Assembly: GCF_002217795.2 (NCBI RefSeq)
Contig: NZ_AP018823.1
Location: 372,001-436,000, forward strand
DNA: 64,000 bases
Reading direction: 5' to 3'
DNA from: Aquitalea magnusonii
Lineage (GTDB): Bacteria; Pseudomonadota; Gammaproteobacteria; Burkholderiales; Chromobacteriaceae
Shown: piece by piece, positions 22,585-54,199 of the stretch
Layout of the letters: each line of letters opens with the position of its first letter
How positions within the stretch are numbered: position 1 is the stretch's first letter
Made by a program: the position numbers and the translations under genes
The notes under the pieces: model-generated
The model's database searches: none
Told to the model about the DNA's origin: nothing
The model's input: only the letters and a program-made list of their open reading frames with translations

Positions 22585-23204
22585 ACAATTTGCTGGTGGA
22601 ATATGGCGTCTGCTTGGTATTCGTTACTAGTAAATTTCATGAATTCCTTGCAGCCAGCACGATTCCATTTTTGTTGGCAGTGCGCAACACTGTGGCATTT
22701 TCTGCTCTTATTGAAGGTATTCTTGAATTTATGCTGCAAGCGCACATTGTGAAATAAAAATAATCCATCACTGTTTTTGATGAAAAAAGCGCTTGGATAT
22801 GGCGATTTTGTTTAAAGAAAGACAGGTTTCGCCGCCAGGCTGCGGTGTTTTCCCCTGGTTTTGCCCCGATTTGTCGCCTCATTTGCGGGAATCGGTGCAG
22901 CGCGGCCTGTGTCATGCGTCCTGCTGGTGCGTGGCATGAATGCATAGGTCTGCGCTGTCGCCACCAAAAAATGCGCAATAAAATTGCGTGTGGAGCGGAA
23001 TGCCGTGCGGGTTGGGATAAAGCGGCCGCTGGCGGCGCGGCTTTGCCAAGTGGCGGCTGCGTGCCGGGTGCGCAGCCAACTGCCGGCTGCCTGGAACTGG
23101 GGAGGTGGAATATAGATGAAAATCCCCTGTGCGCAGGCGGGATCGGGCTGGAGATAAACCCGGCAAGCTGGCCTGCCCTGAATACTTGCCGTATTCTCTT
23201 GCCT
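22585..23204. other. Gene-free stretch between the porin promoter and the riboswitch
   Basis: About 620 bases with no convincing gene. A minus-strand frame at 22637-22978 and a plus-strand frame at 22845-23294 have no ribosome site or recognisable domain, and the latter runs into the riboswitch. The cbi promoter must lie in the right part of this stretch. Confidence 0.5.
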
Positions 23205-23388
23205 GCGATGGTGCCGGTATCACCGGTGAAAAGGGAATGCAGTGAAAGGCTGCAACTGCCCCCGCAACTGTATTCGGCGAGGCTTTATTCATGATGTCAC
23301 TGGTTGACTTGTCTGCATCCACCAACAAGTCGGTGAACCGGGAAGACGAATGAGGCTGCTTGAACCGTAAGTCAGGAGACCTGCCATC
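23205..23388 (+). ncRNA. Cobalamin (B12) riboswitch
   Basis: The conserved B12-box core is plain: AAGGGAATGC...GTGAAAGGC, then CTGCCCCCGCAACTGT (23256-23271) and the closing GTCAGGAGACCTGCC (23371-23385). The segment begins near GCCTGCGATGGTGCCGGT. Ahead of cbiM a small hairpin CAAGCC-GGGG-GGCTTG (23413-23428) and the weak ribosome site suggest translational control. Adenosylcobalamin should switch off cobalt uptake. Confidence 0.95.
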
Positions 23389-23466
23389 CATGTTTGTGAT
23401 TGCGCTAGTCATCAAGCCGGGGGGCTTGCTGCAGAGTCCGCATCACCTTCATCGTGGGTAATCATC

Positions 23467-37353: not shown

Positions 37354-40300
37354 CTAGCGTTTGCGCCCAAACCCCAGTGCCGGATGAAACAGCCAGCCTT
37401 TATCGCTGTCCTTGTCGGCGCGCAAACGCAGCCTGCCGTAGCGCCGGGCGCAATCTTCCAGTGGCATGTCCAGTGTGCTGGCCAGTTGTTCCAGCTCGGT
37501 CAGATAGTCGCTGCTGCCCCAGGGGCGGATGCCCTTGCCGCACAGCAGGGTGTGATCGGCAATGAGGTGCAGCAGGTGATTGCTTTGCAGCCAGCTGATC
37601 GGGTCGCGCTGCTTGCCTTGTTCCAGGCGCAACAGGCTGAGGCCGCTGGCGCTGTCTTCATCCGGTAGCAATGCCAGTTCCCATTCGTCGCCATGGCTCA
37701 GGCGGAAGGGCTGCTTGCGTTGCAGGGCGGCGTGCAGCATGGCATGCGGCCATTGCCAGCAGGTGGCGGCGCATAGCCTTGGTTCGCCAGTGCTGTTGCG
37801 GCGCAGCCCCGGTGTGTGGGTCTGGTTGAGGTCGACTTGCAGGCGGTGGTGTTCCAGGTCTGTCAGGCTGTGGGTGGGGCGCTGTTCTGCCTCGGGGCGG
37901 GCCAGCAGGCGCGGGCGGGAGTCCGGGTGCTGGTATTCTTCGGCGCGCAGCAAGATGCTCAGGTCCGTTTCATCCAGGGGGAAATCCTTGTTTTCGAAGC
38001 CGGGGCGGCAATAGGCCGGTTTCTTTCCCTGCCAGGCGGCCAGGTTGTATTGCAATATCAGCAGATTGCCTTCGCTCCATGGCTGTGGCCAGTGGCGGCG
38101 CACCCGGCCTGCCAGTTGGATGAGCGAGCGCATGGAGGAGGGTTCGGCAATCGCCCAGTTGTAGCAGTGGTCGCGGCCCACTTCGCTGACTGGGGACGAC
38201 AGCACAATGAATACGTGGTCGGCAGCGCTGCTGCCATCCAGCCGGTGGCGGATGTCCGGCAGCGTGAACAGTGCTTGCGGGTTGTGCCGGGTGAGGGCGG
38301 CGTCCAGCTGCCGTTCTATGGCAGAGCGCAGCAGCAATGGGTATTGCGCGTGGTAAACACACAGATGAAGCTGCACGCCATCCGGTGCGTCTTGCGCGTA
38401 CAGTGCCTGGGCCAGCGGATAAATAGTGCTGATATTAGCCAGGCGGATCAGCCCGATGCTGACCCGTTTGCCGCTGACAGGGTCGGTGTCGTGGTTGTGT
38501 GTATGTAGCTGTATGGATTGCTGGCGTAGCAGGCTGGCCAGTGGTTCAAACATCTCGCTGTGTTGACGCGGAATGCCTGCAAGTGACATTAGTACTGCAT
38601 TGCGGCGTACCGCCTGGCCTGCCAGCCAGTGGGCACGGTTGGCGGCAAACTGCTGATGGCTGGCGGCAAAACTGGTGCTATCCGGGCAGTCTGCCGCATG
38701 GCAGTTTTGCTCATCCACCCACAGGCAGCAAATGTTGAGCGCCTGGCCCGGCATGCCACGGTGACGTTGAAATTGATGGCGTCCGGCCTGATAGGCATCA
38801 AACAGGCATTGCACCAGTGCCGGGGGCAGGGTGGCGGAAGACAGCAGCACCCGGCTGCCCAGCAGTCCGGCCCAGTAAACCAGCCGGGTGAGGGCGGGCA
38901 GGTCTTCCACCGAAAAGTCATCCGGTTCGTCCAGCACCAGATCGGAACTCATCAGCCGCAGCATGGGGGCGATTTGTCGCCCGCCGCGCGTGGCTTCGGT
39001 GGCCGGGGTGAGGTGGTCGATGGTGCACACCAGTACCGGGGCGGCCAGCAGGGCGTTGAATTGCGGATCGTGACTGAGCTGTTGCAACAAGGGGTGATCG
39101 GGCTGGCCATCAAACAGCACCGGATTTTCTTCGTCCAGCAGTGGCTGGCTTGATGCCGAGCCACTGGCTTCCGCTTCCTGCGCTTGCAGTTCAAACAATT
39201 CCCGGCTGGCGCTGCCGCCAACGCGGATAGCCAGTTGCTCTGTGCTCAGTTGCAGCCGTTCGCGAAAGGCCTGGCCGGTTTGCAGGGTGAGGGTGCGCAG
39301 GCCAAGGGCAAAGGCACAGCGCATGCCGGTATCCGGATTAGCCAGTGCATGCATGATGCGGGCATTGCCCAGGGTTTTGCCGCCGCCGGTGGAGGCCAGG
39401 TTGACGATGAAAGCCCCTTGGCTGGCGGCGCGCTGGCGCAGGCTGCTGGCCATGTCATGGGCCTTGTTCTGCCAGCTAAAGCGTGGGTCGGTGCTGCGCT
39501 TTAGCAAAGCCCGGCAGCGACCCAGTGCTGGCAGGGCGCGGGCGACATCAGGCAAGGCCGCAGCGGCATGCAAGGCATGGCGGGCAACGCCGGTCAGGTG
39601 CTCCGGCAGGGTCTGGTTGAAGCGGCGGCACGTCCCCGCTGGCAAGGCAGGGTCGCGGCGCAGGGTGTTGGCAAAGGCAATCTTTTTTTCCTGTGCGCTC
39701 TGCCAGCTTTGCTTGACGGTTTGGCTGGAAAAATGGTGGTCGGCCAGCATCAGGGTGAGGCGTGCCAGATGCAGCGGGTACACCTCGTCCAGCCAGATGG
39801 TGCCGCTTGGTCTGGCGGCAAGTTGCCCGGCCAGTTTGGCCACCCGTGTACACCATGTGCTGTCGTTGCAGGGCAGGCCGTAGGGAAAGTACCAATACGG
39901 TGTGGCGTCGGTTTTGCTGACCGGGTCGCAAGGCTGATTCCAGTTGTGATCGAGTGCCTGCAGGCCGGTGCCAAGTTGATTGGCGGTGATGGGCTCAGTA
40001 TTAGTCAGTGGCAGGCGGTGGTGGCTGAGCACCAGCCAGGCGATGGCGGCGGCCAGCGGTGGCAATGCCCCCGGCTGAAACGGCTGCTTGTCTGCTGCGC
40101 CCGGATCCATGCCATCGCGTAAACCGGCTTGTTGCAAGCAGCTTTCCCAGACAGCGGTTGTCATCTGTGAGGGGTTTTGCAGGCGTGTCAGCCAGCCAGC
40201 GTCGTCGTCGCTGCCGACAAAGCCCTGTAGCAGGCGCAAGGACACCCATTCATGCCGGTAGAGATTGGCGGGTTGAGGCTTGTCACTGCGCAGCCGCTGT

Positions 40301-40698
40301 TGAAATGCCTGACAGGCTTTGCCCAGGTCGTGAAATAGCGCGGCCAGCCCGGCCATCAGCCGGATATCCTCGCCGCTCAACCAATCATTTTCGTCTTGTG
40401 CCCTGAGCACATTACGCTGCGTGGTATTGGTGGGGGTGGCACCTTGCGCATTGAAGCGACGGGCATCGCCGACAATCCACAGCAGTTCTGCGTGGTCCCG
40501 GCCGCGCAGCCAATGGCAGGCCACGGCAGTATTCTTGCGCGCGGTTTTGCGTAGCAGGCGGTGCAAGGTTTCCAGCCCGGCCTGGGTGATGGGGGTTTGC
40601 CAGCTGCGGTCGCCCTTGCGTTCGGCAAACTGGTCCAGAATACGGCGTGTTTCAGTCAGCGCGCGTTTGTCGCATTGGGAAATAAGCAGGATATTCAT
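37354..40698 (-). CDS. cas3: Cas2-Cas3 fusion nuclease-helicase (type I-F)
   Basis: The I-F fusion of Cas2 and Cas3, 1114 residues. The N-terminal about 90 residues (MNILLISQCDKRALTETRRI) are the Cas2-like domain used in adaptation. An HD nuclease domain follows (LFHDLGKACQAFQQRL, metal HD at 123-124). The helicase has Walker A STGGGKT (about 436-442), the DEPDD box (about 590), and motif VI near QLAGRVRRH. It degrades targets recruited by Csy complexes and helps Cas1 acquire spacers. It overlaps cas1 by four bases. Confidence 0.97.
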   Translation of the reverse strand: MNILLISQCDKRALTETRRILDQFAERKGDRSWQTPITQAGLETLHRLLRKTARKNTAVACHWLRGRDHAELLWIVGDARRFNAQGATPTNTTQRNVLRAQDENDWLSGEDIRLMAGLAALFHDLGKACQAFQQRLRSDKPQPANLYRHEWVSLRLLQGFVGSDDDAGWLTRLQNPSQMTTAVWESCLQQAGLRDGMDPGAADKQPFQPGALPPLAAAIAWLVLSHHRLPLTNTEPITANQLGTGLQALDHNWNQPCDPVSKTDATPYWYFPYGLPCNDSTWCTRVAKLAGQLAARPSGTIWLDEVYPLHLARLTLMLADHHFSSQTVKQSWQSAQEKKIAFANTLRRDPALPAGTCRRFNQTLPEHLTGVARHALHAAAALPDVARALPALGRCRALLKRSTDPRFSWQNKAHDMASSLRQRAASQGAFIVNLASTGGGKTLGNARIMHALANPDTGMRCAFALGLRTLTLQTGQAFRERLQLSTEQLAIRVGGSASRELFELQAQEAEASGSASSQPLLDEENPVLFDGQPDHPLLQQLSHDPQFNALLAAPVLVCTIDHLTPATEATRGGRQIAPMLRLMSSDLVLDEPDDFSVEDLPALTRLVYWAGLLGSRVLLSSATLPPALVQCLFDAYQAGRHQFQRHRGMPGQALNICCLWVDEQNCHAADCPDSTSFAASHQQFAANRAHWLAGQAVRRNAVLMSLAGIPRQHSEMFEPLASLLRQQSIQLHTHNHDTDPVSGKRVSIGLIRLANISTIYPLAQALYAQDAPDGVQLHLCVYHAQYPLLLRSAIERQLDAALTRHNPQALFTLPDIRHRLDGSSAADHVFIVLSSPVSEVGRDHCYNWAIAEPSSMRSLIQLAGRVRRHWPQPWSEGNLLILQYNLAAWQGKKPAYCRPGFENKDFPLDETDLSILLRAEEYQHPDSRPRLLARPEAEQRPTHSLTDLEHHRLQVDLNQTHTPGLRRNSTGEPRLCAATCWQWPHAMLHAALQRKQPFRLSHGDEWELALLPDEDSASGLSLLRLEQGKQRDPISWLQSNHLLHLIADHTLLCGKGIRPWGSSDYLTELEQLASTLDMPLEDCARRYGRLRLRADKDSDKGWLFHPALGFGRKR

Positions 40699-41672
40699 GC
40701 GCTGGCCCGGCCTTGTGTTGTGGCAATGGTTTTCAGTTGATCAATCATGAAATCCAGTGCCTCGCTGCGCAGTAGCTGTTCGATACAGCATTGGCGAAAG
40801 CTTTGTTCGTCGTCGCCACGCATGGCGCTGACAAAGGCTTGCGGCAGGATGATGGCGTCCTTGACCAGGTCGGCCGCGTCAAACACCAGGCCACCTCGAC
40901 GCGTTTTGCCATGCAGGATGGCCAGTCCATGCGGCAAGCCCAGCACCCAGGTGGCGGTGGCGCCCAGGCCATAGGCGAGGTAATTGCCATGGTCCAGAAA
41001 GCGGTTGGCCGGGTCGCTGCCGTTGCCGCGCTTGGCGCGGGTGAATTCGCCGTAGTGGCTGGCTTGGGCTGCCAGGCGAAACAGCAGTTTGGAAAGGCGG
41101 GCTTCCTCGGTCAGCAGGCCGGTGTGGTCCACGGCCTGGGTGATGGCATGCGCCGAGGCCTGCAGTGCTTCGCTCAGGCGGGTTTCATCAATGCTAAAGC
41201 CCGCTTCACGTAACTGGCGGTTATCCGACCATTGCCCGCAGATGCGTTCCAGCCTGGCCAGTTGCAACTGCTTGGCCGCGGCCAGCCGTTTGGACTCGTC
41301 AAACCAGAAGCCAACCCAGTATTGCAAATATTCGGTTGGCCGGTATTCGGATTGGGGAGATTGCCAGGCGATATCCAGTTCGCGCTCGCCCGCAGTAAAC
41401 AGTGGCGTGCCGCCACCACCACAAAAGCCAACCATCACCCCTGCCTTGGCCAGCTCGCGCATGGCGGCCTGGGTGATGGACGTGCCGGTTCCCAGTAGCA
41501 GGGTGGTGGTGTTGGCAATGGGGATGTTCCAGTACAGTGACTGCTTGCCCTGATCCGTTACATATTCAACCCGGCCACCGTTGACCAGCACGTGGCAGTG
41601 CTCCAGGTAATACAGATGCGCCCGCTTGGAATGCAGAATGGTTTTGAGATCGGCAGGGGAAAAGTCATCCAT
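40695..41672 (-). CDS. cas1: CRISPR integrase Cas1 (type I-F)
   Basis: A 325-residue Cas1, the spacer integrase. It has the I-F N-terminus DLKTILHSKRAHLYYLEHC and the metal site region with conserved Glu and His (LLTEEARLSKLLFRLAAQAS; LPHGLAILHGKTRRGGLVFD). A GGAG site precedes the ATG at 41672. It is first of the cas genes; upstream on the minus strand CATAAT (about 41717-41712) is a possible -10. Confidence 0.96.
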   Translation of the reverse strand: MDDFSPADLKTILHSKRAHLYYLEHCHVLVNGGRVEYVTDQGKQSLYWNIPIANTTTLLLGTGTSITQAAMRELAKAGVMVGFCGGGGTPLFTAGERELDIAWQSPQSEYRPTEYLQYWVGFWFDESKRLAAAKQLQLARLERICGQWSDNRQLREAGFSIDETRLSEALQASAHAITQAVDHTGLLTEEARLSKLLFRLAAQASHYGEFTRAKRGNGSDPANRFLDHGNYLAYGLGATATWVLGLPHGLAILHGKTRRGGLVFDAADLVKDAIILPQAFVSAMRGDDEQSFRQCCIEQLLRSEALDFMIDQLKTIATTQGRASA

Positions 41673-41799: not shown

Positions 41800-42040
41800 C
41801 ACGACAACAGCGGGTGGGCTCGGCATCGCCGCTCTGGTAATCCTGCATTGCGGCCAGCGTGTACTAACCACTTTCGCGGCCTGCTTCCTCCCCAGCCAGG
41901 CTGACCGACCCGGCATGCAGGCAGATGATGTGGAGGCTTCAGGCGAGAGTGCGTTGATACGGGTGATGGTGGCAAGCTGCTTACGCGCGTAACGCTCCGC
42001 CTGACGCTGTTGCTTGGGGGAAGGTTGGATGGGGCTAGTG
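41800..42040 (-). pseudogene. Remnant of a tyrosine-recombinase gene
   Basis: On the minus strand this piece translates as RQAERYARKQLATITRI and, after a frameshift, CLHAGSVSLAGEEAGRESG. An in-frame TAG and YTLAAMQDYQSGDA then follow. These match the N-terminal region of the intact island integrase at 52209-53960 (RQAERYARTQLAAITHI, CLHAESASLAGDEARRENG, YTLDEIEEYQTG). At least one frameshift and one stop are present, and the catalytic half is gone. It lies between cas1 and the island end, so it marks an older element of the same type in this place. Confidence 0.88.
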
Positions 42041-42226: not shown

Positions 42227-42251
42227 GGTCTGGCGGAGAGGGAGGGATTCG
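42227..42251. repeat. Island attachment site, distal (tRNA 3'-end copy)
   Basis: Twenty-five bases identical to 54106-54130, in the same orientation. The sequence begins GGTCTGGCGGAGAGG and ends GGATTCG, that is, the acceptor stem and part of the T arm of the tRNA-Ser gene plus three flanking bases. The homology stops at once on the island side (GGATTTC here, AACCCTC in the tRNA). Confidence 0.92.
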
Positions 42252-42606: not shown

Positions 42607-45303
42607 ATGTCTACGCCAACGGCTCGTTATATCCCTCTCGATGCCCCTGAGTCTGCAAACCTCACTGATGTAAAGACCTTGCTTCCCTTGGCGGTGTACC
42701 AAGACTTGGCGCGTCTGATCAATGAGGCCTTACAAAGAACAAGTGCTCTTAATTTCACAAGCAAAGTCAATGAAGTGCGAAGTCATAATGCGGTGTCCAT
42801 TGATGGTGAGCGTGGCACCGGCAAGACCTCGGTACTGGTCAATTTGAAAAGATATCTCGAAAATGAACATAAGGAAGCGCTAAAGCAGATCCATATTCTA
42901 GAGCCAGTAGACCCTACCCTACTTGAAGACCACGAATCGTTATTCTTGCATGTAATCGTGGCTGCAGTGCTGTCAGATGAGAGGGTGAAGCAGTCACAGA
43001 GTTTCAATCCAGATGCTGGAAAACGGCTGAATCAAGCATTGGAAAAACTTGCACACGCTTTGGAGTCGGTAGAGCGGCAAAAGGAAGAGCGCGGCATGGA
43101 CAAGCTGCGGGCGCTGTTCGGCAATAAGCATCTGGCAGATTGCGTGCAAGACTTTTTCAAGGCTGCACTAGTTTTGCTAGAAAAAAAGCTGCTTGTGTTG
43201 CCGATTGATGATGTTGATACCTCACTCAACCGTGCTTTCGAGAATTTGGAAATTGTTCGTCGTTATCTGACAACACCTTATGTGTTGCCCATTGTCAGTG
43301 GCGATCGCGAGCTATACCGTGAGGTTACCTGGCGTGACTTTCACGGCCGATTGACCAAGGATTCCAATTATCGGACGCACGAGGCATACGAAATAGCACT
43401 TGATCTGGCCAATGAATACCAGCGCAAGGTATTGCCACCACCACGTCGGCTGAACATGCCGCCAGTGCATGAATACCTACAGGATCAAAACATCACGCTG
43501 GGTAAGGTAGACAATGGCATCATCTCGTTACCTAACTTCCATGCTTGGCTCAGTATTTTTCTTGCCGGGCCGGTCAATGGCCGAGAGGGTAGTGATTTAG
43601 CAGTTCCCATTCCTTCTGTGCGTGCGTTGACCCAGCTAGTCAATCGTTGTTCTGCTCTTATTCCTGAGCTACCGCTTTCCGTGCGAAAGGCTGAAAGTCC
43701 TTTACAAGTTCGCCGAGTTTGGCAGATGCCCAAGCTTAGACCGGAGGTAATCGAGGCATTTCATCTGAGGCACCAAGAGCTGGGTAAAGAGATGAAACGT
43801 GAATATGGGCCAGCCTATAGAGTTTTGGCTAATGAGCTGGCTGGTCAGCAAGTACCCGTAAGTAGTGTACTGGGTAAAGACGAGATTAAACGCTGGGAAA
43901 AGACATTAATTGACTACTTTCGTTACGAGCCACAGGCTGGAGCGGTTTATCTAGTGCTACAGGCATATCAGCACTGGCAGAGTTTGGCTGGGAGCAATGA
44001 GCGTCAAGCCAGTATTTTCGATACTCCACTTTTCCAGCCATTACGGCACGATGCAGCAAACTTAGCTCAGTTCGACAAGGAAGCGGACCTTGCTGATTGG
44101 AAAGATCGTTTGAAAGGAAAGTTGCCTGAGAGTTGGCTCTCAAGGCTGGATGCAAGAAAAACCTTGCTACCCTATCCTGTCGCGGAGGTGGGGGTAAATT
44201 CCTCAATGAAATGGAAGTATTGGGAGGACTGCACTCGTATTCAGGCATCTGAAAGTGTACAGCATAAAGCTACTTTTCTTATTTCATTACTAAGTCATAA
44301 TAATTACTACACAGAGGCCAAACAAAGCATGATGTTGAATGTGGGCCGCATCTTCGAGCTACTAATTGCCAGTCTTGTTGGTCCGTTGCATTTTCCAACC
44401 CTGCAAGGTATTGTTCAGGAAGCACCATTTTATTCAACCAGTGCATTGGCACCAACCAAGACACTTGAACTAGAGAATAAGCCAAGTAAAGTATTGGTTA
44501 TTGGCGAAGGTGACGATGATGTCGAAAATAGGCCTGATTATGTTTTTGATATGCTGAATACACAGCTAGTAGAGTTTCAACGAGAAATATCAAAATGGCG
44601 CGAAGTTCACGAACTTGATAATGTACGCTTCTCTCCATGGCTCATCTATAAAGTGTTTAATAAGGTTTACAGCCAAGTGGCGAGTTCGAAGTCATTATCT
44701 ACAGGTATGACTAATATTGGTACTGCATTGGAAATGGTTGGCATGGTGTTCTATGCAACCTGGTCAGCATTTGGTAGTTTTGAAAAAGGTGGTCTGTTTG
44801 GTTTGCCGGATGTGGTGGCTACTGTTAATTTGAATTCGCCACGAAATTTTGAACAAAATGACCATTTTCGTGTGAATATCTTGCCGTTTTCACTAACTAC
44901 TAGCCAGATTGAGCAAGAGCATCAGGCGTACCAAGATAAAAAGGCATTTGGTGAAAGTTCGCGTACTGCCAGCTACTACCTTGCAAATCATCCTCTGCGA
45001 ATCTGGTTGGATGAAATTCCTGTAGCACAACTAGTTAATAAAAAAGGTGTAGCTAGTGCCTCTGTGACAGTGAAAGATAGTATAAAAAAGGATAGAAAAA
45101 CCGCGAAACAATGGTTATGTGAACAATTTGGTATTGCGGCTACCGTTACATTGACTCAGAAGCGTTTGGTGGAAGAGTTAGGTGCGATTGCCGTGGAACA
45201 GCGTGATCAACTTATCAAAGCCATGGCCAACCTCTATCCTAAAGCTAATCAATTGGATTTACTAAAGAAAGCGTACAACACCTTGGCTAATATACAAAGC
45301 TGA
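42607..45303 (+). CDS. rdrA: RADAR defence ATPase RdrA
   Basis: An 898-residue P-loop ATPase, recognised as RdrA by its form, its size and its adenosine-deaminase partner. Walker A GERGTGKTS lies at 67-75 and a Walker B LLVLPIDDVDTS at about 195-206. An arginine-bearing segment follows (YVLPIVSGDRELYREVTWRDF). The rest has no motif I recognise. In RADAR, RdrA forms heptameric rings that load RNA or nucleotide substrate onto RdrB after phage infection. An AAGG site precedes the ATG. The stop and the rdrB start share one base (TGATG). Composition is well below backbone GC, in keeping with transfer. Confidence 0.9.
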   Translation: MSTPTARYIPLDAPESANLTDVKTLLPLAVYQDLARLINEALQRTSALNFTSKVNEVRSHNAVSIDGERGTGKTSVLVNLKRYLENEHKEALKQIHILEPVDPTLLEDHESLFLHVIVAAVLSDERVKQSQSFNPDAGKRLNQALEKLAHALESVERQKEERGMDKLRALFGNKHLADCVQDFFKAALVLLEKKLLVLPIDDVDTSLNRAFENLEIVRRYLTTPYVLPIVSGDRELYREVTWRDFHGRLTKDSNYRTHEAYEIALDLANEYQRKVLPPPRRLNMPPVHEYLQDQNITLGKVDNGIISLPNFHAWLSIFLAGPVNGREGSDLAVPIPSVRALTQLVNRCSALIPELPLSVRKAESPLQVRRVWQMPKLRPEVIEAFHLRHQELGKEMKREYGPAYRVLANELAGQQVPVSSVLGKDEIKRWEKTLIDYFRYEPQAGAVYLVLQAYQHWQSLAGSNERQASIFDTPLFQPLRHDAANLAQFDKEADLADWKDRLKGKLPESWLSRLDARKTLLPYPVAEVGVNSSMKWKYWEDCTRIQASESVQHKATFLISLLSHNNYYTEAKQSMMLNVGRIFELLIASLVGPLHFPTLQGIVQEAPFYSTSALAPTKTLELENKPSKVLVIGEGDDDVENRPDYVFDMLNTQLVEFQREISKWREVHELDNVRFSPWLIYKVFNKVYSQVASSKSLSTGMTNIGTALEMVGMVFYATWSAFGSFEKGGLFGLPDVVATVNLNSPRNFEQNDHFRVNILPFSLTTSQIEQEHQAYQDKKAFGESSRTASYYLANHPLRIWLDEIPVAQLVNKKGVASASVTVKDSIKKDRKTAKQWLCEQFGIAATVTLTQKRLVEELGAIAVEQRDQLIKAMANLYPKANQLDLLKKAYNTLANIQS

Positions 45304-48002
45304 TGCTAAACCGTACTCTTACTGAACATGCTAGTGGATGCTTTTATGGCAGTGAACAGCTGGCAGTACGCTTGTGGGGTACATTGCTCCAGCCTCAACT
45401 GAGAATTGATCAGGGCAGATTGCAATTCTTGCAGGATGACTGTTATCAACAGTTGGTGAATGTTGTCGATACCCGCTACCCGCGCCGCTATCGCTTGAAC
45501 GACATTCGCAGATTAATGGACCGACTGTGTGATGCTCGTTTGTTTCTCTCTCCCGACTTGCCATGGCTAGATGTTTTATTCCATCAGTTGATGCTGCGTA
45601 ACGGCGACTTGGTGTGCTATCGCGACACTGAGGTACAAGCTTATGTCCGACTGGCTGCCGAGCTTGATCCGACCCTCTTGGTTGCTTGGCATTTAAGTGG
45701 TTGGCTACAGGAAAGCCCGCAACCAATGCAAGGGGATATATGCCGTGTGGTGTCTGCTCAAACACCATTCTTTGCACCACCACCCAATCCGGTCTTGTCT
45801 TTTGCTGAAGGCCATGTTCATTTGGGTGGTATTACTAGTGAGAGTGTTGTTTTGAGCGGCTATCTACTCAAAGAAGATAGTCAAGACAAATTAAATAGCA
45901 ACTCAACTGACCAGCTCAAGCAGCTTCTACGTTTACGCAAGCTATTGAAGCTTTTACTGGCTTACGCAAGTGAGAGAGATGTCGGTAGAGACATGTATAA
46001 CCCGAAAGCCTTAGCGGACGGGGATGACATTGTCAAAGTGCTATCTGATCTGATGGACGATCATAATGCCTTACCGGACTGGCACTTATTGGCCGCAAGC
46101 CATGCTTCTGCTCCAGTTGCATCGGCTAATTGGGTGTGTGGACAGTTTGCGCAAGCAATGTCTCGTGGCTGTACCAGCAGCTGGTTGTGGTTACTTCTTT
46201 ATATATGCTGCTTATATCGGCAGTCCGAGACATCACCACAGTATCGTATTGCCATCTTGTGTTGGATTCAAACTCTCAATGATGTACGGCGGCGGATGAT
46301 CATGGATGGTCAGGGGCTCACCCGCTTTGTGGAGCGCTACTTTCAAAATCCGCTGCGGCGAGGAGGAAGTTCCGTACTGCAAGACAATGTGAGACGTCTG
46401 CTCGTGGGTAATCGAGATGTGGCAGAGATCAAGGCTCTTCCTAGTGCTTTCTCGCCTGCCGGCGTGGCCAAGTTGTCTGAGATGATTGTTAAGCAAACCC
46501 AGTCGTTCAGTTTCAGGCCACCATACATCTTTGGTGAGCATGAAATTGATACCGTCAAGATTGAAAAACAGGATTTGCTGGCGATGGAACGCTGGCAGTT
46601 TTGCGGCCATTTTTCTAGGTCGGTAAAAAAAGTTCGTAGGGACGATCCTCGTGCTGACATGCCAGAACTCTGGAAAACAGCAGAGGAGCTGCTGACTAAT
46701 TTGACAAGGCATGCCGGCTGGAGTCGGCCAGAGTTTTTCGGTGGACATATGAATCCGCATTTTCGCTTCCAGCCCGCACGTTGGTTTCGTGGTCTGGATG
46801 TGGCGGGTGATGAAAACGATCTACGTATCGAATGGTTTGCACCCATCTTGCGCTGGTTACGACGGGGGTTTATTGCACGTCCCGATGGCGAGCAGGCTAG
46901 CAGTGGCTTTCATTTCAGTATTCATGCAGGGGAGGACTATGCGCACCCTTTATCTGGTATGCGCCATATTGACGAGACCGTACGTTTTTGTGGAATGCGA
47001 GCTGGCGATCGGCTAGGGCACGCATTGGCATTAGGTATTACCCCCGCACAATGGGTTTCAAGGCAGGGTGAAATGATTGTGCCGCTGGATGAGCATCTGG
47101 ATAACTTGGTCTGGCTTTGGCATTACTCTACTGTGCTCAGTGGTCGTTTACCGTTGGCGCAACAGGTTCAGGCGGTGATTGAAAGGCGTATTGCCCGGCT
47201 TTTCCCCTTGACACGTTGGTACGAGCCGCCAGAGATAGATATGTGTCAGAAAGAACGTTGCTTTGATTATCGGTCTATGCCCAAACCGAAAATGGTATCG
47301 CCATCTGAGCTCTTTGATGCATGGCTCTTACGTCGCAACTGTCATTTTCATTGGAAAAAACTGCATGGAGATCTGCCTAGGAGCGCGAGGGAAAAATGCG
47401 CGTTGCCTGATGCCGCTGTATTGAGTAATCAGGAAGATGTGGCTGCAAGTCTTTATCACAATCGACATCAGCATCTGGTTGCGGGTAGCAAGCTACCGTT
47501 AGTCGTTGTAAGGAGCGGCTGCGAATGGGACTGTCAGGCACTGCTTGGTCTGCCTGTCGAACGAAAGGAAATTATCGATGATATAGATTCCGCCCCAGAG
47601 TTGGACTTCATGCTTGCTCTACAGGATTATTTGCTCGACAAGTATGACCAGATGGGGCTGATTATTGAAACCAATCCGACATCAAATGTCTATATAGCCC
47701 GGTTGGAAAAACATAGCGAACATCCGATATTCCGCTGGAATCCACCAGATGAGTCGGTACTTGCTGTTGGGGCGAGTTACAATCGCTATGGCTTGCGCCG
47801 CGGTCCGGTCAAAGTTTTGGTAAATACTGATGATCCTGGAATTATGCCAACAACTTTGCGAACGGAATTTTCGCTACTACGAGAGGCTGCTACAGATTTG
47901 GGTATAGCCAGGACAGTGGCGGAAGAATGGTTGGAAAGATTAAGGCGCTATGGTATCGAGCAATTTTACCAAAACCATCTGACTGTATTTGATACGAAAT
48001 GA
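45303..48002 (+). CDS. rdrB: RADAR adenosine deaminase RdrB
   Basis: An 899-residue protein with a split adenosine-deaminase active site. The metal HxH is in AEGHVHLGG (His171, His173). The catalytic Glu and metal His are in SIHAGEDYAHP (His541, Glu544). An NPTSN block with HSEHP lies near 800, and the metal Asp is in VNTDDPG (842-846). The large insert between the first two motifs and the total length match RdrB, not housekeeping Add (about 340 residues). RdrB makes inosine from adenosine or ATP/RNA during infection and stops growth. It is coupled to rdrA and to the membrane gene. Confidence 0.92.
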   Translation: MLNRTLTEHASGCFYGSEQLAVRLWGTLLQPQLRIDQGRLQFLQDDCYQQLVNVVDTRYPRRYRLNDIRRLMDRLCDARLFLSPDLPWLDVLFHQLMLRNGDLVCYRDTEVQAYVRLAAELDPTLLVAWHLSGWLQESPQPMQGDICRVVSAQTPFFAPPPNPVLSFAEGHVHLGGITSESVVLSGYLLKEDSQDKLNSNSTDQLKQLLRLRKLLKLLLAYASERDVGRDMYNPKALADGDDIVKVLSDLMDDHNALPDWHLLAASHASAPVASANWVCGQFAQAMSRGCTSSWLWLLLYICCLYRQSETSPQYRIAILCWIQTLNDVRRRMIMDGQGLTRFVERYFQNPLRRGGSSVLQDNVRRLLVGNRDVAEIKALPSAFSPAGVAKLSEMIVKQTQSFSFRPPYIFGEHEIDTVKIEKQDLLAMERWQFCGHFSRSVKKVRRDDPRADMPELWKTAEELLTNLTRHAGWSRPEFFGGHMNPHFRFQPARWFRGLDVAGDENDLRIEWFAPILRWLRRGFIARPDGEQASSGFHFSIHAGEDYAHPLSGMRHIDETVRFCGMRAGDRLGHALALGITPAQWVSRQGEMIVPLDEHLDNLVWLWHYSTVLSGRLPLAQQVQAVIERRIARLFPLTRWYEPPEIDMCQKERCFDYRSMPKPKMVSPSELFDAWLLRRNCHFHWKKLHGDLPRSAREKCALPDAAVLSNQEDVAASLYHNRHQHLVAGSKLPLVVVRSGCEWDCQALLGLPVERKEIIDDIDSAPELDFMLALQDYLLDKYDQMGLIIETNPTSNVYIARLEKHSEHPIFRWNPPDESVLAVGASYNRYGLRRGPVKVLVNTDDPGIMPTTLRTEFSLLREAATDLGIARTVAEEWLERLRRYGIEQFYQNHLTVFDTK

Positions 48003-48742
48003 GAAAGATGAATATGCAGGATAAATTGAATAAAATAAATACAGATAAAAAAAATCTATTTGACGAAGATTCAATTTCCAATATTGATGATTTGACAAAA
48101 TTAATGCATAAGACTGAAAAATCGTTGGAGAAAAAGGCTGGGGAAACTAGGGTGATGCGTTATATATTTCGCAGAATTCCATTGTATGCTAGTGCAGGCT
48201 TAATTTTCTTTGCATTGTGTTTGCTGACTTCATTTTCTAATGAAATTGGAATGGAGTCTGTAAGTGAGTGGATTTTGGATGTGAAGGATTTTATTGTTAC
48301 ACAGTTTTTTAGTTTTTGTGGATTGTTATTTCTTCGCTTTGTTTTGATGATTCTTAATGGTAAAAGCAAATGGTGCGAGGAGTTTTTTTCACTCCTACTT
48401 GGATTGTCGATTTTGATTACATTTAAGTGTTTGCTGGTCTATGAGCATTCTATTATTGCCGGCTTGGTTTTATATGGTACGGTGACGTTGTTGGCCACTG
48501 TGATAGATAGAACTCTGGGCTATACCAGAAGCAATGAAAGATATCTATTGTTCAGCAACCGAGCAAAAAATATGGCCATTATGTATAAATCTTTTAGTAA
48601 GATGGGCGTGACTCTTCGGGAGGAACACATTCGAGAGTGCGGAAAATTTTTTGAAGAGTTACAACTAACCAAGTACAACGACACTGTTGGGGATTCCTTT
48701 TATCTTCTTGGTCAGTTGGAAAAACGGTTGGGAAAAGCATGA
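47999..48742 (+). CDS. RADAR-associated membrane protein
   Basis: A 247-residue protein with a charged coiled N-terminus (about 1-58) and four hydrophobic helices (about 60-79, 102-125, 130-150, 153-172). A cytoplasmic C-terminal part follows (RYLLFSNRAKNMAIMYKSFS). Its start overlaps the rdrB stop (ATGA), so it is the third gene of the operon. Many RADAR loci have an accessory membrane protein with either a SLATT domain or a Csx27-like fold. This one fits that role, but I cannot tell which family. AT-rich, unlike the backbone. Confidence 0.75.
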   Translation: MRKMNMQDKLNKINTDKKNLFDEDSISNIDDLTKLMHKTEKSLEKKAGETRVMRYIFRRIPLYASAGLIFFALCLLTSFSNEIGMESVSEWILDVKDFIVTQFFSFCGLLFLRFVLMILNGKSKWCEEFFSLLLGLSILITFKCLLVYEHSIIAGLVLYGTVTLLATVIDRTLGYTRSNERYLLFSNRAKNMAIMYKSFSKMGVTLREEHIRECGKFFEELQLTKYNDTVGDSFYLLGQLEKRLGKA

Positions 48743-48812
48743 TAATATTGGAACTCTTGAAATTCGATTTAAGAGTTTGATGTAAAAGCACAGATGTATG
48801 CTCTTTCTCGCT

Positions 48813-49975
48813 CTCAGTGGACACTAGCGTAAGATGGTGTATGCCGCCTTAAGTCCATAGTGTCTGCTATGAACTGAGTGGCAAGCACGAATAGTCAAGA
48901 TAGACCGGGCATCGAGCATGATGCCCGGTCTTGAGAGAGAACAATTTCCTAAGAAACATTACCTTATCCCGCTCACTGATCCGCCAAGACCAGTTGTCGT
49001 GCCCCCCGCCGCCAAGCGGAGAACACGGCACATCACTGCAATGGGCCGCCAAGCCCTTCCCCCGTAGGGGTGCACACATTTTTCCACCGCTGGCAGTTTT
49101 CGAGTACCGGTTGCCCGGTTCACGCCTCCCTTGACTGATTAGGTCTCGAGATTTGCTCAAACTCTACTCTCCGCCGCTCCCTCTCTTGTACCGTTCCGAG
49201 TGCCAGCCCGGTCAAATGGCCGTCAGAGATTCCCACGTTAGCTGATTGTGTCGAAACCACGATTTAGGAATACGTCATTTCAGAGTGAAGGCATCGCATA
49301 CGCTTACCCGGTTGCCCGGTTTCTGTCGCGCGATGTTCCATAGCCGCAACTTACCCGCCATCACTCGTCATCAATGAATCACCCCATACAGGGCGTACCC
49401 AAGGTTTCTTACTGCGATAAAGGGGACTCTCACCCCTATTTACATGCTTAAGCTATCCAGCGACCCTTCCATTACGAAGGTGCCATGTACCCAGGACAGA
49501 AGTTGATATCTTCTGCTTATTTTTACCCCGGTACACCTACGCCATTTCTGACGCATCAGCAGCCTACACGCGCAGTCTTTGTCACGCCGTTCATTTCCAA
49601 ACGTCCCAAAGCCCGGATTTTCACCGGTTCACATATCAGCAGGGTTGGTCTGCGTTACCGCAGCTCCCGTTTCCGTGTCGCCCAACCTCGAAGGAGGATC
49701 GGGTCGAACATGGCATGTCTGCCACTAGCGCCCGTTTCAGCCGCACCAGCCAGCGTTACCCGGCATGCAGCTAAGGCGGTGTACGAAAAGTTGGCAGCTT
49801 TTCGCGTGTCTTTCGACATGTGTGTGTTTGCAGGTTGGCGTCCTGCGTTTTGCCTCCTCATCAGCATAAAGGGGCAAAACGCAGAACACCGTGCATGCGA
49901 GCCGACCAGACTCTCACCTGGCTGCCTGCCCTGAAAACACATCGTTCCTGATGGTGTATAGCGAAATGCTCTGAA
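48813..49975 (-). ncRNA. Candidate large structured RNA, about 1.1 kb
   Basis: About 1.2 kb with no credible gene, yet far from random. Read on the minus strand it is rich in RNA-like hairpins with purine loops: CCAG-GTGAGAGT-CTGG, CCGG-TGAAAAT-CCGG and GGGG-TGAGAGT-CCCC (near 49429), and CTGCGTTTTGCC / GGCAAAACGCAG (49842-49882). There are also CGAAAAG / CTTTTCG (49784-49804) and a 12-bp stem AGACCGGGCATC / GATGCCCGGTCT (48902-48931). A further hairpin CTCAGT-GACACTA / TAGTGTC-ACTGAG spans 48813-48878. Loops of GNRA or GTGAGAGT type are seen in large ribozymes. I could not find group II domain V. Ends are approximate. Confidence 0.5.
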
Positions 49976-50061
49976 AATCTTGGAACATCATTACGTGCAA
50001 GTCGCAGCTACCGAATCACATTGCAAGGACGTACTTTTTCTTCGCTATACAGAGCATCACC
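49953..50061. repeat. Crossed inverted repeats between RNA block and unknown gene
   Basis: On the left, GGTG-TATAGCGAA-ATGCTCTG spans 49953-49973. On the right, TTCGCTATA-CAGAGCAT-CACC spans 50041-50061. The 9-base and 8-base modules are each perfectly complementary to their partner, but their order makes the pairings cross, as in a pseudoknot. Between them TACGTGCAA and TTGC-AAGG-ACGTA can also pair. TATACA (50046-50051) may serve as a -10 for the gene at 50082. Confidence 0.7.
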
Positions 50062-50081
50062 AACTGAATGAGAAAACCTGT

Positions 50082-50711
50082 ATGTCTGCTTCAACACCCA
50101 TCGCTCGCAACAAAACCGCAGCACTGGTCCGCATCGTGGACAGTGTTCCGAAAGGCTATCACCGCTACATGTATGGCACGGTTGCCCCGAGCAAAGCAGA
50201 AGCCTTGGCGAGGAAATTTCATGCTTTGTACGGGATTGGCTGCTCGTCAGCTCAGCGACTGACGCGTAAGGGGAAAGGGCTGGCCAATGCCGTGTTGGTC
50301 ATGTACTGGCCTTTGGCTGCAGAAAAAGTGGAGTGGCTACTGCTGGCAACAGATGGGGAAGGCCTCGAGCAGGAAACCTTGCGGGATGTCGGAAATAAGC
50401 CGCACTTCAAATGGCTTGGGTATGAACTGGTACGCCAACCCAGCCGAGGCAGGGCTGTGTGGACATGGCGACGGTCAAAACAGGAAATGGAAGAACTGCA
50501 TGCCCTGATTGCTATGCAGGCGAACCGGAAAAACACAGCCGCGATAACGGAAACGCTGGAGCGCATCGCCAGACAGCCTGGTTTCCATGGCGTACGAGCC
50601 CAGTCATGGGCGCTATGTCAGGCTGCGCTACAGCGTAGATATGATGGCCCGCTGCCGCATCTGTTCTTTGTGCAAAAGATAAGTCATGGGGAGCGGCTTA
50701 TAGTGGGATAG
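50082..50711 (+). CDS. Uncharacterised basic protein beside the structured RNA
   Basis: A 209-residue protein that I do not recognise. The ATG at 50082 (MSASTPIARNKTAALVRIVD) is preferred; a start at 49980 would place 34 codons through the inverted repeats. It is rich in Lys, Arg and aromatic residues (VPKGYHRYMYGTV, KVEWLLLATDGEGLE, RAVWTWRRSKQEM), with a C-terminal helical part. There is no signal peptide, membrane helix or nuclease motif that I can name. It is divergent from the structured RNA block and lies inside the defence island. An RNA-binding or RNA-dependent effector role is only a guess. Confidence 0.7.
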   Translation: MSASTPIARNKTAALVRIVDSVPKGYHRYMYGTVAPSKAEALARKFHALYGIGCSSAQRLTRKGKGLANAVLVMYWPLAAEKVEWLLLATDGEGLEQETLRDVGNKPHFKWLGYELVRQPSRGRAVWTWRRSKQEMEELHALIAMQANRKNTAAITETLERIARQPGFHGVRAQSWALCQAALQRRYDGPLPHLFFVQKISHGERLIVG

Positions 50712-50897
50712 CCTGAAAAGCTGACGTTTTATAGGATGGTCCATATAATCAGAATATAGTACTCATTGACTTGATGGTGGTAGTCATACTGCTATCCGTA
50801 CAAGATTGAATTCCAAGTTGCAGGTTTACTCCCTAGATTTTCATGGAAAACAATGAACATTTTCGTGGTGATTTTTGAATTGCAATTGATCTATATT

Positions 50898-52055
50898 TTA
50901 GCTATTGCACAGTGCGCGAATTTCATTTTCTGTTACGCCTTTTAGAATGTCGCGAGCAATTCTAAGAGTCATAATGTCTTCCTTGTTTAATTTTACTTTC
51001 TTGCCATGTACAATTTTATTACGTAAATCGTATAGGCTTAGAATGTTATGATATACGCGGTCCCTCTCGGTTTTGTTTTTTGCCGAGTAGGCGCATCTGC
51101 TTGCTAGAATTCTCTTGATTGAGGTGGCGTTGTTTTCATTATCTTCTGGGCGTGTGAACAGTGTTTCTAGTGCAATTGACGTTTGAATTATGCCGAAAGA
51201 ATTTAAGTTGCTATTGGCTTCGATTTGCCATTTTATTGAATTATTGATTTGAGTTGCATGAGTTTCATTTATGCTAAAGTATTTTGTTAGCAATAATTCA
51301 TTTTCTTTATTTATTGATGAATTATTTAAGTTTAAATTGTGATGGAAGTGGAATAGGTGTGCTGGTTGAATTAAATTCGCAATAATTCTATTGCAGGTGA
51401 TATTTTGTATTGTATATTCGTCATTTCTTTTTTCGAACATGTATCGCAAATTACTAAAATTTGCTCTTAGAATTCCTAGCATTCTCAGTATGTATATGCA
51501 AGTCCCGATGTAATCCTCTACTTCCGAAAAGTCATAACCTCCTATCGCCCCTGTGTAGATAAATGAAATGTTTGATGTGTCTTCTCCGTTCGTGTCTTTG
51601 CTTGGGTGGAATTCAATATTGTTTGAAATTTTTACTGTATTTTTAAATGCAATATTTTTTGCAGTGCAAATCGGAACGGTGATTTTATATTTATTGGGAT
51701 AGCTGGTAATTCTTGAGTGCAATGCCTTTGCTAGTGAAATAATTTCAATTTCAGATAATTTTCTTTTGTTGCTATCTTCGGTGTTGGTTAGTTCTGACTT
51801 TATATCGTCTGTTATTAAGTGATGAATTTCATCCTCTATAACTCTTCTCTTGTGTTCTGGTAATAAATCGCCGGAAATGAATGTTGATAGTATGGCTACA
51901 TCCTCATTTTTTGGGATTAGGATGTTTTTGTTTTTTCTAAAATAAACATCGCAGTTTGAAAGTGTGCGATTGCATATGAATATTAATTTTTCAGAGCTGT
52001 TTTTGTTCATTTTTAAGCCATCTAAGCGAATATTTGTATGGTAAATGATATTCAT
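50898..52055 (-). CDS. HEPN-domain protein (ApeA-like C-terminus)
   Basis: A 385-residue, very AT-rich gene. The C-terminal third has the shape of a HEPN domain: IQTSIALETLFTRPEDN, then LYDLRNKIVHGKK, where RNKIVH is the R-x4-H RNase motif. The N-terminal 250 residues resemble no family I know. HEPN proteins of this sort (ApeA/RloC/Swt1-like groups) often cut RNA in abortive phage defence. Start is uncertain: ATG 52055 or 52010 (MNKNSSEKLI), neither with a strong ribosome site. It stands alone in the defence island between the integrase and the unknown gene. Confidence 0.75.
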   Translation of the reverse strand: MNIIYHTNIRLDGLKMNKNSSEKLIFICNRTLSNCDVYFRKNKNILIPKNEDVAILSTFISGDLLPEHKRRVIEDEIHHLITDDIKSELTNTEDSNKRKLSEIEIISLAKALHSRITSYPNKYKITVPICTAKNIAFKNTVKISNNIEFHPSKDTNGEDTSNISFIYTGAIGGYDFSEVEDYIGTCIYILRMLGILRANFSNLRYMFEKRNDEYTIQNITCNRIIANLIQPAHLFHFHHNLNLNNSSINKENELLLTKYFSINETHATQINNSIKWQIEANSNLNSFGIIQTSIALETLFTRPEDNENNATSIKRILASRCAYSAKNKTERDRVYHNILSLYDLRNKIVHGKKVKLNKEDIMTLRIARDILKGVTENEIRALCNS

Positions 52056-52208: not shown

Positions 52209-53960
52209 CTACGGCTTGTCCGCCCGAATGAACTCCACCTCCGGGAAGGTGATGCGCGACAGGATTTCCAGCTTCTTGTCGACCGGCAGTTCACCCCGGT
52301 ATTTCTTCACCACTGCTGACGCTTCCTGATTCACCTGCCCGTTCTGAATGGTCTCAATGCTGGTGATATTGCTGGCATGGCCGGTGATGGTTTCCGCGCT
52401 CACCACGCCCAGCACCATCGCCCGGTGCAGGAAGGTGGAGCGGAAAGCATGCATGCCGACAATGCGGGCATTCGGGGTTTCGTCGCGCAGGCCGATTTCC
52501 TGCAGGAATTCGGTGAACCACTTCATTGCCTTGGGCGAGGCACGGCCAGCGGCGGTCGGGAAGGCTTGGAACAGCAAAGTGTCGCCACGTTTCTTGGCTG
52601 CTGCCACATAGTCGAGGAAACCCAGCTCAATCAGTTTGGGATGGATGGGCAGCTTGCGCTTCGAGCCGCCCGTTTTCACTGACTTGTCGATGCGGGCATC
52701 GCCTTCGGATTCGTCGGTAATGTCCATATACCAGGTACCAGTCTGGGCATCCTGCGTGATATCGACTTGTGGATTCAGTTGGCACAGCTCATTGACCCGT
52801 GCGCCGGTGAACAGGCCCAGATGGGGTAGCCAGTATTTATGTGCCATGGCTGGCCGTCGGGCAAAGCGTGCCATTTCCGGGCCTTCAAACAGGCGCTTCA
52901 GCTCAGAGGACTCAAAAGCGCGTTGCCCGCCTTCGGGGTCACGGCGAGAGCCGAGGTATTGCACGCCTTCGGTGGTGAGTGTCATCGGCCAGCCATGGTC
53001 CTGCCACTTACGGCGGCAGTATTTGATAAATGGGGTCATGACTGCAAGGTAGGTGCCGTCGAAGGTCCCTTTGCTCATCTCGCCGCGTTGCTGTTTGGCC
53101 AGTTCCAGTGGGCGCAGTTTTTCCTGACGGCAGATGTCTTTCCAGCGTGGGGGCAGGGTTTGCACCGCTTCGAAGTAGGCCTCAAGGTCGGTTTGCTTGA
53201 GCAGGCCGATGGGCTTGTCACCGATGATATCCACCAGCAGCGGCATCACCGCCGTGACCTTGCGCAGCATCGCCACCTTGTCCAGCTTCTGATAGTAGGC
53301 CAGATAGCTTTGGGTCACCTCCGACAGCATCGGCGTTTCCAGCCGCTGAGCCATGACTGGCGTCGGCACTTCCTTGCCGTCATAGCGACTGAGCAGCTTT
53401 TCGTTGGTGCGGATGGCCATGCGGCCATAGGCCAGTGCCAAGCGGCGCATTTCCGGCTCGGTGGCTTTGAGCTGGTAGCGGTACAGCCGCAGGAATTGTT
53501 CCAGTGGGCCACGCAGTAGCTCGTAGTCACCAATGGCTACTGCACCCTTGAGAATGCGATTGGCCTCGGTGTAGCCGGTCTGGTATTCCTCAATTTCGTC
53601 CAGCGTGTAGTGGCCGTTTTCGCGGCGTGCTTCATCCCCAGCCAGGCTGGCCGACTCTGCATGCAGGCAGATGGCGTCGATGGCTTCGGGGGTGAGTGCG
53701 TCGATGTGAGTGATGGCGGCGAGTTGCGTACGTGCGTAACGCTCCGCCTGCCGCTGTCGTTTTTCCTCCCACTCAGAGGTCAGACGGGCTTCTTCGGCGC
53801 GATGGCGCGCGACAGCAGTGCGGTAGTCTTTGGTGCGTAGCGAAAACGTGATTTCTTTTTTGCCGGGATAGCAAACAAGAATGTCAGTCGGGATGCGACG
53901 ACGAAGATAGTAGGTGCCGGATTGGGGGTGGCGTTGCAGGCCGGTAGGTAACATTGGCAT
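52209..53960 (-). CDS. int: Island tyrosine recombinase (integrase)
   Basis: A 583-residue integrase with the full catalytic set: Arg388 in TGARVNEL, the beta-hairpin lysine in GGSKRKLPIH, His504 and Arg507 in HAFRSTFLH, His528 in TGHAS, and the nucleophile Tyr554 in VKKYRG. The N-terminus (MPMLPTGLQRHPQSGTYYLRRRIP) is the short DNA-contact domain common in large integrases of this class. It lies next to the intact tRNA-Ser and between the two arm-type repeats of that end. It should catalyse insertion and excision of the 11.9-kb island. No excisionase gene was seen. Confidence 0.95.
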   Translation of the reverse strand: MPMLPTGLQRHPQSGTYYLRRRIPTDILVCYPGKKEITFSLRTKDYRTAVARHRAEEARLTSEWEEKRQRQAERYARTQLAAITHIDALTPEAIDAICLHAESASLAGDEARRENGHYTLDEIEEYQTGYTEANRILKGAVAIGDYELLRGPLEQFLRLYRYQLKATEPEMRRLALAYGRMAIRTNEKLLSRYDGKEVPTPVMAQRLETPMLSEVTQSYLAYYQKLDKVAMLRKVTAVMPLLVDIIGDKPIGLLKQTDLEAYFEAVQTLPPRWKDICRQEKLRPLELAKQQRGEMSKGTFDGTYLAVMTPFIKYCRRKWQDHGWPMTLTTEGVQYLGSRRDPEGGQRAFESSELKRLFEGPEMARFARRPAMAHKYWLPHLGLFTGARVNELCQLNPQVDITQDAQTGTWYMDITDESEGDARIDKSVKTGGSKRKLPIHPKLIELGFLDYVAAAKKRGDTLLFQAFPTAAGRASPKAMKWFTEFLQEIGLRDETPNARIVGMHAFRSTFLHRAMVLGVVSAETITGHASNITSIETIQNGQVNQEASAVVKKYRGELPVDKKLEILSRITFPEVEFIRADKP

Positions 53961-54105: not shown

Positions 54106-54199
<94 letters not shown>

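Follow-up and report, generated by a model that had tools for sequence, protein, structure and literature searches.

Circularly permuted (CP) group II ribozymes, once called T-large RNA, are RNAs of about 900 nt that occur in Thermus, Firmicutes, and Proteobacteria, both on plasmids and in chromosomes, and frequently next to an open reading frame (ORF) named AcpG (Roth et al., 2021; PMC8637638). Back-splicing in vitro was demonstrated for five members of the class. In the sections of that paper considered here, the roles of ribozyme and AcpG are called unknown, and two possibilities are raised, namely exploitation of the ribozyme by mobile elements and a part in defence. Here, we describe a structured RNA and a 209-residue protein encoded in a 64,000-nt stretch of Aquitalea magnusonii (contig NZ_AP018823.1, 372,001–436,000, forward strand), which is referred to below as the window and to which coordinates refer. 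The pair is almost certainly a CP group II ribozyme with its AcpG. We further propose, with a probability of roughly 50%, that the AcpG–ribozyme particle does the job of a relaxase in conjugative mobilization.

Structure and class of the RNA

The RNA is about 1.1 kb long and extends on the minus strand from about 49989 leftwards to a hairpin at 48902–48931, divergent from the 209-aa ORF. The module comprises the following features:

48902–49989, minus strand: CP group II RNA, its 5′ end assigned, from the long-range pairing, to 49989 or further out
49982–49989, minus strand: GAUGUUCC, 5′ side of the covarying long-range pairing
49739–49772, minus strand: domain V, with AGC triad, five more pairs, a two-base UG bulge, and an upper helix
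49701–49733, minus strand: probable domain VI, read from the sequence, with a candidate bulged A at 49704; the model fold prefers another pairing
49677–49699, minus strand: AU boundary, variable linker, and GUUGGGCGAC boundary
49332–49339, minus strand: GGAACAUC, 3′ side of the covarying long-range pairing
48972–49059, minus strand: conserved 3′ part with three CUUGGC-type loops (covariance model R2)
48902–48931, minus strand: terminator-like hairpin at the RNA 3′ end, a putative terminator
50082–50711, plus strand: acpG, 209 aa

The sequence-only reading of this locus had described a hairpin-rich block, structured on one strand and free of any credible gene, and this description held. The RNA is assigned to the minus strand because of its fold energy relative to shuffled sequences, the pair changes in the consensus, and the bias between G-U and A-C cells. 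The minus strand of 48900–49890 folds at −411.6 kcal/mol (z −6.78), which none of 20 shuffles equalled, versus z −2.02 for the plus strand of 48896–49890, where one of 20 shuffles was as good. The minus-strand consensus of 13 homologous blocks contains 329 pairs, 194 of them altered on both sides, so that the covariation proposed as a check is indeed found and is strong. G-U makes up 11.3% and A-C 2.3% of its cells. The tendency is opposite in the plus-strand fold (3.9% and 6.0%), and a plus-strand RNA was rejected on fold energy and this bias. The perfect 12-bp hairpin at 48902–48931 is present, and the second hairpin reported earlier has 25-nt arms at 49837–49861 and 49866–49890 that are 80% complementary, with a perfect 12-bp inner stem. 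Also, hairpins with GTGAGAGT loops occur on the minus strand at 49906–49921 and 49422–49436. The only ORF of at least 100 aa scanned inside the block (49485–49934) matched no Pfam family. A known group II intron in Rfam, which had been named as evidence against a new module, did not appear: no related family was found at the gathering score in the window or up to E 10 in 48700–50900.

Domain V, which the sequence-only reading had looked for in vain, lies near the 5′ end of the RNA (49772–49739), the place typical of the permuted class. The RNA has no internal ORF, and acpG is close by, again as in that class. Since the class is published (Roth et al., 2021; PMC8637638), the module is of a described kind, although it had been considered possibly undescribed.

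Homologous RNAs were collected with covariance model R1 (window 49655–49776), which was run over 55 loci and later over further loci. All eight lower pairs of domain V are formed in 33 of 46 RNAs and at least seven in 38. The remaining eight rows carry an AGU triad with a compensating partner (three) or CGC (two), are split by an insertion sequence (IS; L084), or are weak (L075 and L076). The AGU variant belongs to Paraburkholderia plasmids and CGC to two genomes (rows L088, L120, L121, L093, and L054). In the split RNA, that of Pandoraea, an IS256 transposase gene breaks the sequence (L084 12452–14024). In 13 MAFFT-aligned sequences, all 143 domain V cells are paired and three pairs vary on both sides, a result reached by two of 500 shuffles. 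A candidate domain VI, GGGCG / CG-A-CCC, is readable with its A invariant in the 13 sequences; the consensus fold took another pairing.

AU and GUUGGGCGAC-like segments flank a variable linker in most of the 46 rows, followed by a conserved 3′ domain; the second boundary is merely GUGYG-like. The long-range pairing joins GAUGUUCC with GGAACAUC in the lineage of the window and GAGAUUCC with GGAAUCUC in others, so the two sides covary. An 8-base long-range complement was present in 29 of 42 RNAs versus 9.1 expected from shuffles, a count that accepts any 8-base complement between the two search areas. The string GGAACATC occurs within the RNA (49332–49339, minus strand) and, on the opposite strand, upstream of acpG (49982–49989, plus strand). 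Apart from the long-range pairing, this string may have a second function in autoregulation, as an AcpG site common to both places.

AcpG and its predicted fold

The window AcpG is basic (31 K+R against 17 D+E) and, as anticipated by the sequence-only reading, was not placed by family models: no Pfam, NCBIfam, or PADLOC model matched it at the limits used. The E. coli homologue had no Pfam match. No relaxase profile was matched in these searches (Pfam and NCBIfam for the window protein, Pfam for the E. coli homologue). A hidden Markov model (HMM) of AcpG matched the ORFs of Thermus aquaticus pTA14 (5.8e-22) and pPNAP05 (8.7e-38). Homology to the TTHC007-type proteins is seen through these two ORFs.

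Structural models of AcpG resemble reverse transcriptases (RTs), with a predicted group II RT palm–thumb fold across 167 of 209 residues (e.g. PDB 8t2s and 6ar1). The AcpG sequence showed no significant similarity to 11 group II RT sequences in hhalign, and the window protein contains no DD (YxDD). On these models, we regard AcpG as a shrunken, presumably non-catalytic relative of the group II intron-encoded protein that has kept palm and thumb. This relation to RTs and the role proposed below are new here; the ribozyme class itself was already known. A canonical group II intron with an intron-encoded RT was rejected, given domain V near the 5′ end and a protein without DD. The same absence of DD agrees with the earlier statement that the locus is not a retron and has no RT (no intact one is present), and speaks against a DRT; retron Eco8 and DRT9 are merely fold neighbours.

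Distribution of the module

AcpG was found in 20 of 150 related genomes and in 8 of 369 genomes drawn from the class, the genome studied here being in both sets. In the protein database, 706 of 7997 candidates scored were matches, those named being 'hypothetical' or 'uncharacterised' among the matches listed. The earlier view that a large structured RNA lies beside a dedicated protein held, and the two usually occur together: 45 loci have both R1 and an AcpG frame (that of L124 placed by position), divergent in 44 and on the same strand in one (pMtBL). This company arises partly by choice, because most loci were fetched via the protein. At the Acinetobacter locus L066, which was fetched via the RNA, the AcpG profile matches the ORF (8.5e-16). 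The RNA stands alone at L068, L070, and L069. Conversely, R1 had no match at E 0.01 in 12 scanned AcpG loci (L005 and L006, two contigs ending inside AcpG, were outside the scan). Achromobacter L011 encodes an AcpG relative with 60% identity and gave no R1 match.

Across 398 genomes of the phylum, R1 gave 10 matches at E 0.001, two strong (the own genome and G802) and eight weak, which were not counted. The whole block compared as DNA with plasmids retrieved three records with 47-nt matches only. No AcpG match at E 0.001 occurred in 50,697 phage records.

A second copy of the module in the same genome is 89% identical across 1.9 kb (RNA block 95.6%, protein 80%). The window copy, the second copy, and one from a congener are alike between about 48809 and the ORF end, with different flanks. 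A transposon with fixed ends was considered and rejected: the three copies share no visible terminal repeats, and homology ends around the AcpG stop codon. A 3.1-kb segment with the second copy is bounded by a 78-bp direct repeat of 90% identity (L039 4655–4732 and 7791–7868); no empty site for this segment was found among 10 genomes of the genus. The genome also holds a 3′ RNA piece (L040 2724–2812, near 934,7xx; R2 93.9 bits, no R1 or AcpG match), apparently a remnant.

Plasmids, secretion genes, and relaxases

AcpG was retrieved from 27 plasmid records with the window query and from 28 with the E. coli query. Twenty module plasmid records were read whole or in part (L061–L067, L084–L091, and L120–L124, the AcpG of L124 by position). 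Rep and par genes recur in them. Type IV secretion system (T4SS) genes were present in six: E. coli pSCU-171-2, Pandoraea pPO70-4, P. terrae pPT70 and pPT65, P. aromaticivorans pBN5, and Gluconacetobacter pGDIPal5I. B. glumae p28s4p encodes TraH and TraG, and the remaining 13 had no T4SS in the stretch viewed (for L066, L085, L087, L089, and L122, part of the record). In all six T4SS plasmids, a coupling-protein gene, annotated as TraM-recognition, DUF87, TraC, or hypothetical, adjoins the module on one side, if the IS256 inside the Pandoraea RNA is disregarded. The four coupling proteins checked matched NCBIfam TraD models at 8e-7 to 4e-21, under the curated cut-offs.

No relaxase of the families searched was detected in whole module-plasmid records: PF03432 in none of 14, TrwC in none of 14 and none of six further (among them L123, with a truncated AcpG and no R1), and MobA_MobL and TraI_2 in none of 19. 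PF13814 was discarded as a test for MOBC; its 0 of 23 is uninformative, because a plasmid typed MOBC by PLSDB was also missed. All 27 AcpG plasmid records are typed 'non-mobilizable'. Plasmid mobility typing is insensitive to new relaxases, as is also seen in pHJ90-cfr, typed non-mobilizable despite a MobC-like protein, and the typing was therefore not used as proof.

Two comparisons with related plasmids were made. The Pandoraea VirB4 gave 2749 matches in 72,556 plasmid records (2382 conjugative, 116 mobilizable, and 251 non-mobilizable). The top four were the four module plasmids (itself, 76.3, 76.0, and 74.6%), followed by Xanthomonas plasmids at 55–56%, among the matches listed; one more record falls in the 60–80% band outside these. 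The Xanthomonas record read (H67, 55.5%, typed MOBF) encodes TrwC (2.3e-84), and R1 found nothing better than E 0.15 in the 31 of its 44 kb searched. The E. coli coupling protein matched 1307 records. Two with 44–48% identity were read, pKPC2_CF65 (typed MOBC) and pHJ90-cfr. In both, a protein matching the NCBIfam MobC model below cut-off (6.4e-15 and 3e-9) is encoded divergently from the coupling protein across 0.9–1.0 kb. Neither MobC-like protein had a counterpart at E 0.01 in the E. coli module plasmid, whereas this plasmid did match the coupling protein, VirB11, and two more genes of the sisters. In the stretches of both sisters, neither R1 nor the AcpG profile gave a match. Thus, in two T4SS lineages the module occupies the relaxase place of the related plasmids read.

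Among 5426 complete E. coli genomes, 22 records in 21 genomes matched the E. coli module. Fifteen are plasmids of 27–35 kb with at least 80% of the module matched. The other seven are about 3 kb in size and match about 720 nt of the RNA (one record being split at its start); the three of these that were read encode RepL and have a full R1 match but no AcpG. Strain FHI_NMBU_11 contains both kinds of plasmid, and the chance of at least one such strain is 0.019. This co-residence, a single case, fits a cis-acting RNA part served by a helper.

Thiothrix pTunz1 has two equal-score R1 matches (L122 3693–3820 and 19084–19211), one AcpG match, and two replication genes; it is perhaps a fused plasmid.

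Proposed role and alternative explanations

Group II introns reverse-splice into DNA and are helped by a maturase. To our knowledge, the conjugation step at issue is so far known from protein relaxases. We propose that AcpG would fold or hold the ribozyme in the manner of a maturase and that the particle would recognise a transfer origin on its own element, make a strand available, and pass it to the T4SS via the neighbouring coupling protein. Where the carrier is a small plasmid or an integrative element like that of the window, the pair would allow mobilization through the T4SS of a helper. The computed basis consists of the class features and strand of the RNA, the company of AcpG, the likeness of its models to RTs, the proximity of the coupling protein, the lack of any searched relaxase family, and the relaxases in related plasmids; binding of the RNA by AcpG, nicking, and transfer are what we infer from it. 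More tentatively, and with greater doubt than belief, the CP group II ribozyme itself might be the relaxase, cutting the transfer strand by reverse splicing at an origin recognised through base pairing, so that an RNA enzyme would start conjugation. Several points weigh against a role in mobilization. The origin of transfer (oriT) and transfer itself are postulated; many carriers have no T4SS of their own and would need helpers; and the lineages with a swap are few.

Another role, which we regard as unlikely, is that of a defence particle, with ribozyme and AcpG acting together to cleave incoming nucleic acid or invade it; defence is a possibility named by Roth et al. (2021; PMC8637638). RADAR adjoins the window copy, BREX-type and TerB genes lie beside the second copy, and type I restriction, Mrr, HamA, and other families occur among 119 neighbours of 22 chromosomal loci. 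The defence genes near chromosomal copies are, however, of many kinds that differ by locus, with no control neighbour set for comparison. AcpG has no PADLOC match, and neither the small plasmids that hold little besides rep, par, and module nor the 3-kb plasmids with the RNA alone carry annotated defence genes. Defence is thus possible but weaker than mobilization, and not specifically supported. We give somewhat less credence to a maintenance or control device of plasmids and islands, acting on copy number, stability, exclusion, or neighbouring genes. Plasmid pMtBL of 4.1 kb consists of about half module, plus an origin and parAB (PMC6848147). In five of the six T4SS plasmids, the RNA is upstream of the coupling-protein gene on the same strand and could therefore act on its expression. 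Yet the OriR described for pMtBL (1918–2759; PMC10033558) is outside the R1 match (3123–3272), replication of pTT8 was reported to be unaffected by deleting nearly all of the ribozyme (PMC8637638), and the module is also present in chromosomal elements. Improbable, finally, is a selfish or leftover ribozyme that mobile elements carry without benefit to themselves. The two copies and one RNA remnant in the own genome and the two RNA copies on one Thiothrix plasmid would suit it, but domain V, the long-range pairing, and AcpG are kept across very distant hosts, no terminal repeats or fixed ends were seen, and the published account consulted gives the class no known route of self-movement (PMC8637638).

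No conjugation role for the CP group II class was found in the open-access literature, subscription papers and preprints being outside the search. The naming paper, in the parts considered, gave the ribozymes no role and AcpG no relatives (PMC8637638), and the proposed function in conjugation makes the question testable. If true, a ribozyme would perform a step of protein relaxases, and some 'non-mobilizable' plasmids could be mobile.

Host element and chromosomal neighbours

The window copy resides in an element between two 25-bp repeats, which also contains RADAR genes, an integrase-type gene, and one unplaced ORF:

42227–42251: left 25-bp repeat of the element
42607–48742, plus strand: RADAR genes rdrA, rdrB, and rdrD (cargo)
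52209–53960, minus strand: DUF6538 integrase-type protein of the element
54106–54130: right 25-bp repeat, overlapping the end of tRNA-Ser (54110–54199)

The defence cargo announced by the sequence-only reading stood as far as RADAR is concerned, with RdrA and RdrB above the NCBIfam cut-offs and RdrD under its own. The HEPN label was not confirmed: the 385-aa ORF at 50898–52055, between module and integrase, matched no Pfam, NCBIfam, or PADLOC model. A four-query search located integrase relatives near 7 of 22 wide-flank chromosomal loci (the window, L041, L045, L048, L049, L053, and L054) and also at L006 and L078. Among the 119 neighbour ORFs of the 22 loci, five match PF00589 and two DUF6538 at 1e-6.

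Just outside the left repeat, 41810–42015 is 80–81% identical to the integrase-gene part 53556–53762 and may derive from another element that shared this tRNA-Ser site. Type I-F Cas3 and Cas1 genes and 39 CRISPR-DR4 matches adjoin the element (30726–33094 and 37354–41672). A cobalamin riboswitch is located at 23192–23402.

Comparison with known systems

The RNA shares with CP group II ribozymes the position of domain 5 before the presumed domain 1, the AGC triad with a U-starting bulge five pairs off, a length of about 1 kb, and the lack of an internal ORF. Long-range pairings, occurrence on plasmids and chromosomes, and a frequently divergent acpG are further common traits (PMC8637638), and Polaromonas pPNAP05 is common to Roth et al. 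and the AcpG matches obtained here. Unlike in that paper, where seemingly no canonical pair is formed, the triad A pairs with U in 13 of 13 sequences. Also, the window copy, whose catalysis is putative, is within a RADAR-bearing integrative element.

The protein agrees with AcpG (the TTHC007 family) in position, size, and association, and the HMM matches the pTA14 and pPNAP05 ORFs. The parts of the naming paper considered report no homology to a protein class (PMC8637638), whereas the present models point to a group II RT palm–thumb fold. The predicted fold and the group II RNA partner are shared with group II intron-encoded proteins or maturases (PDB 8t2s and 6ar1), from which AcpG differs in being much shorter, lacking YxDD, being encoded outside the RNA, and showing no significant sequence similarity.

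With the relaxases MOBF (TrwC) and MOBC (MobC), the module shares the place beside the coupling protein in related plasmids; no sequence relation was seen, and an RNA with a small protein takes the place of the relaxase here. SGI1 mobilization employs a small RNA and the mobilization proteins MpsA and MpsB and not, in the account consulted, a group II ribozyme (PMC9299015). It resembles the proposed system in that an RNA is needed to mobilize an integrative element.
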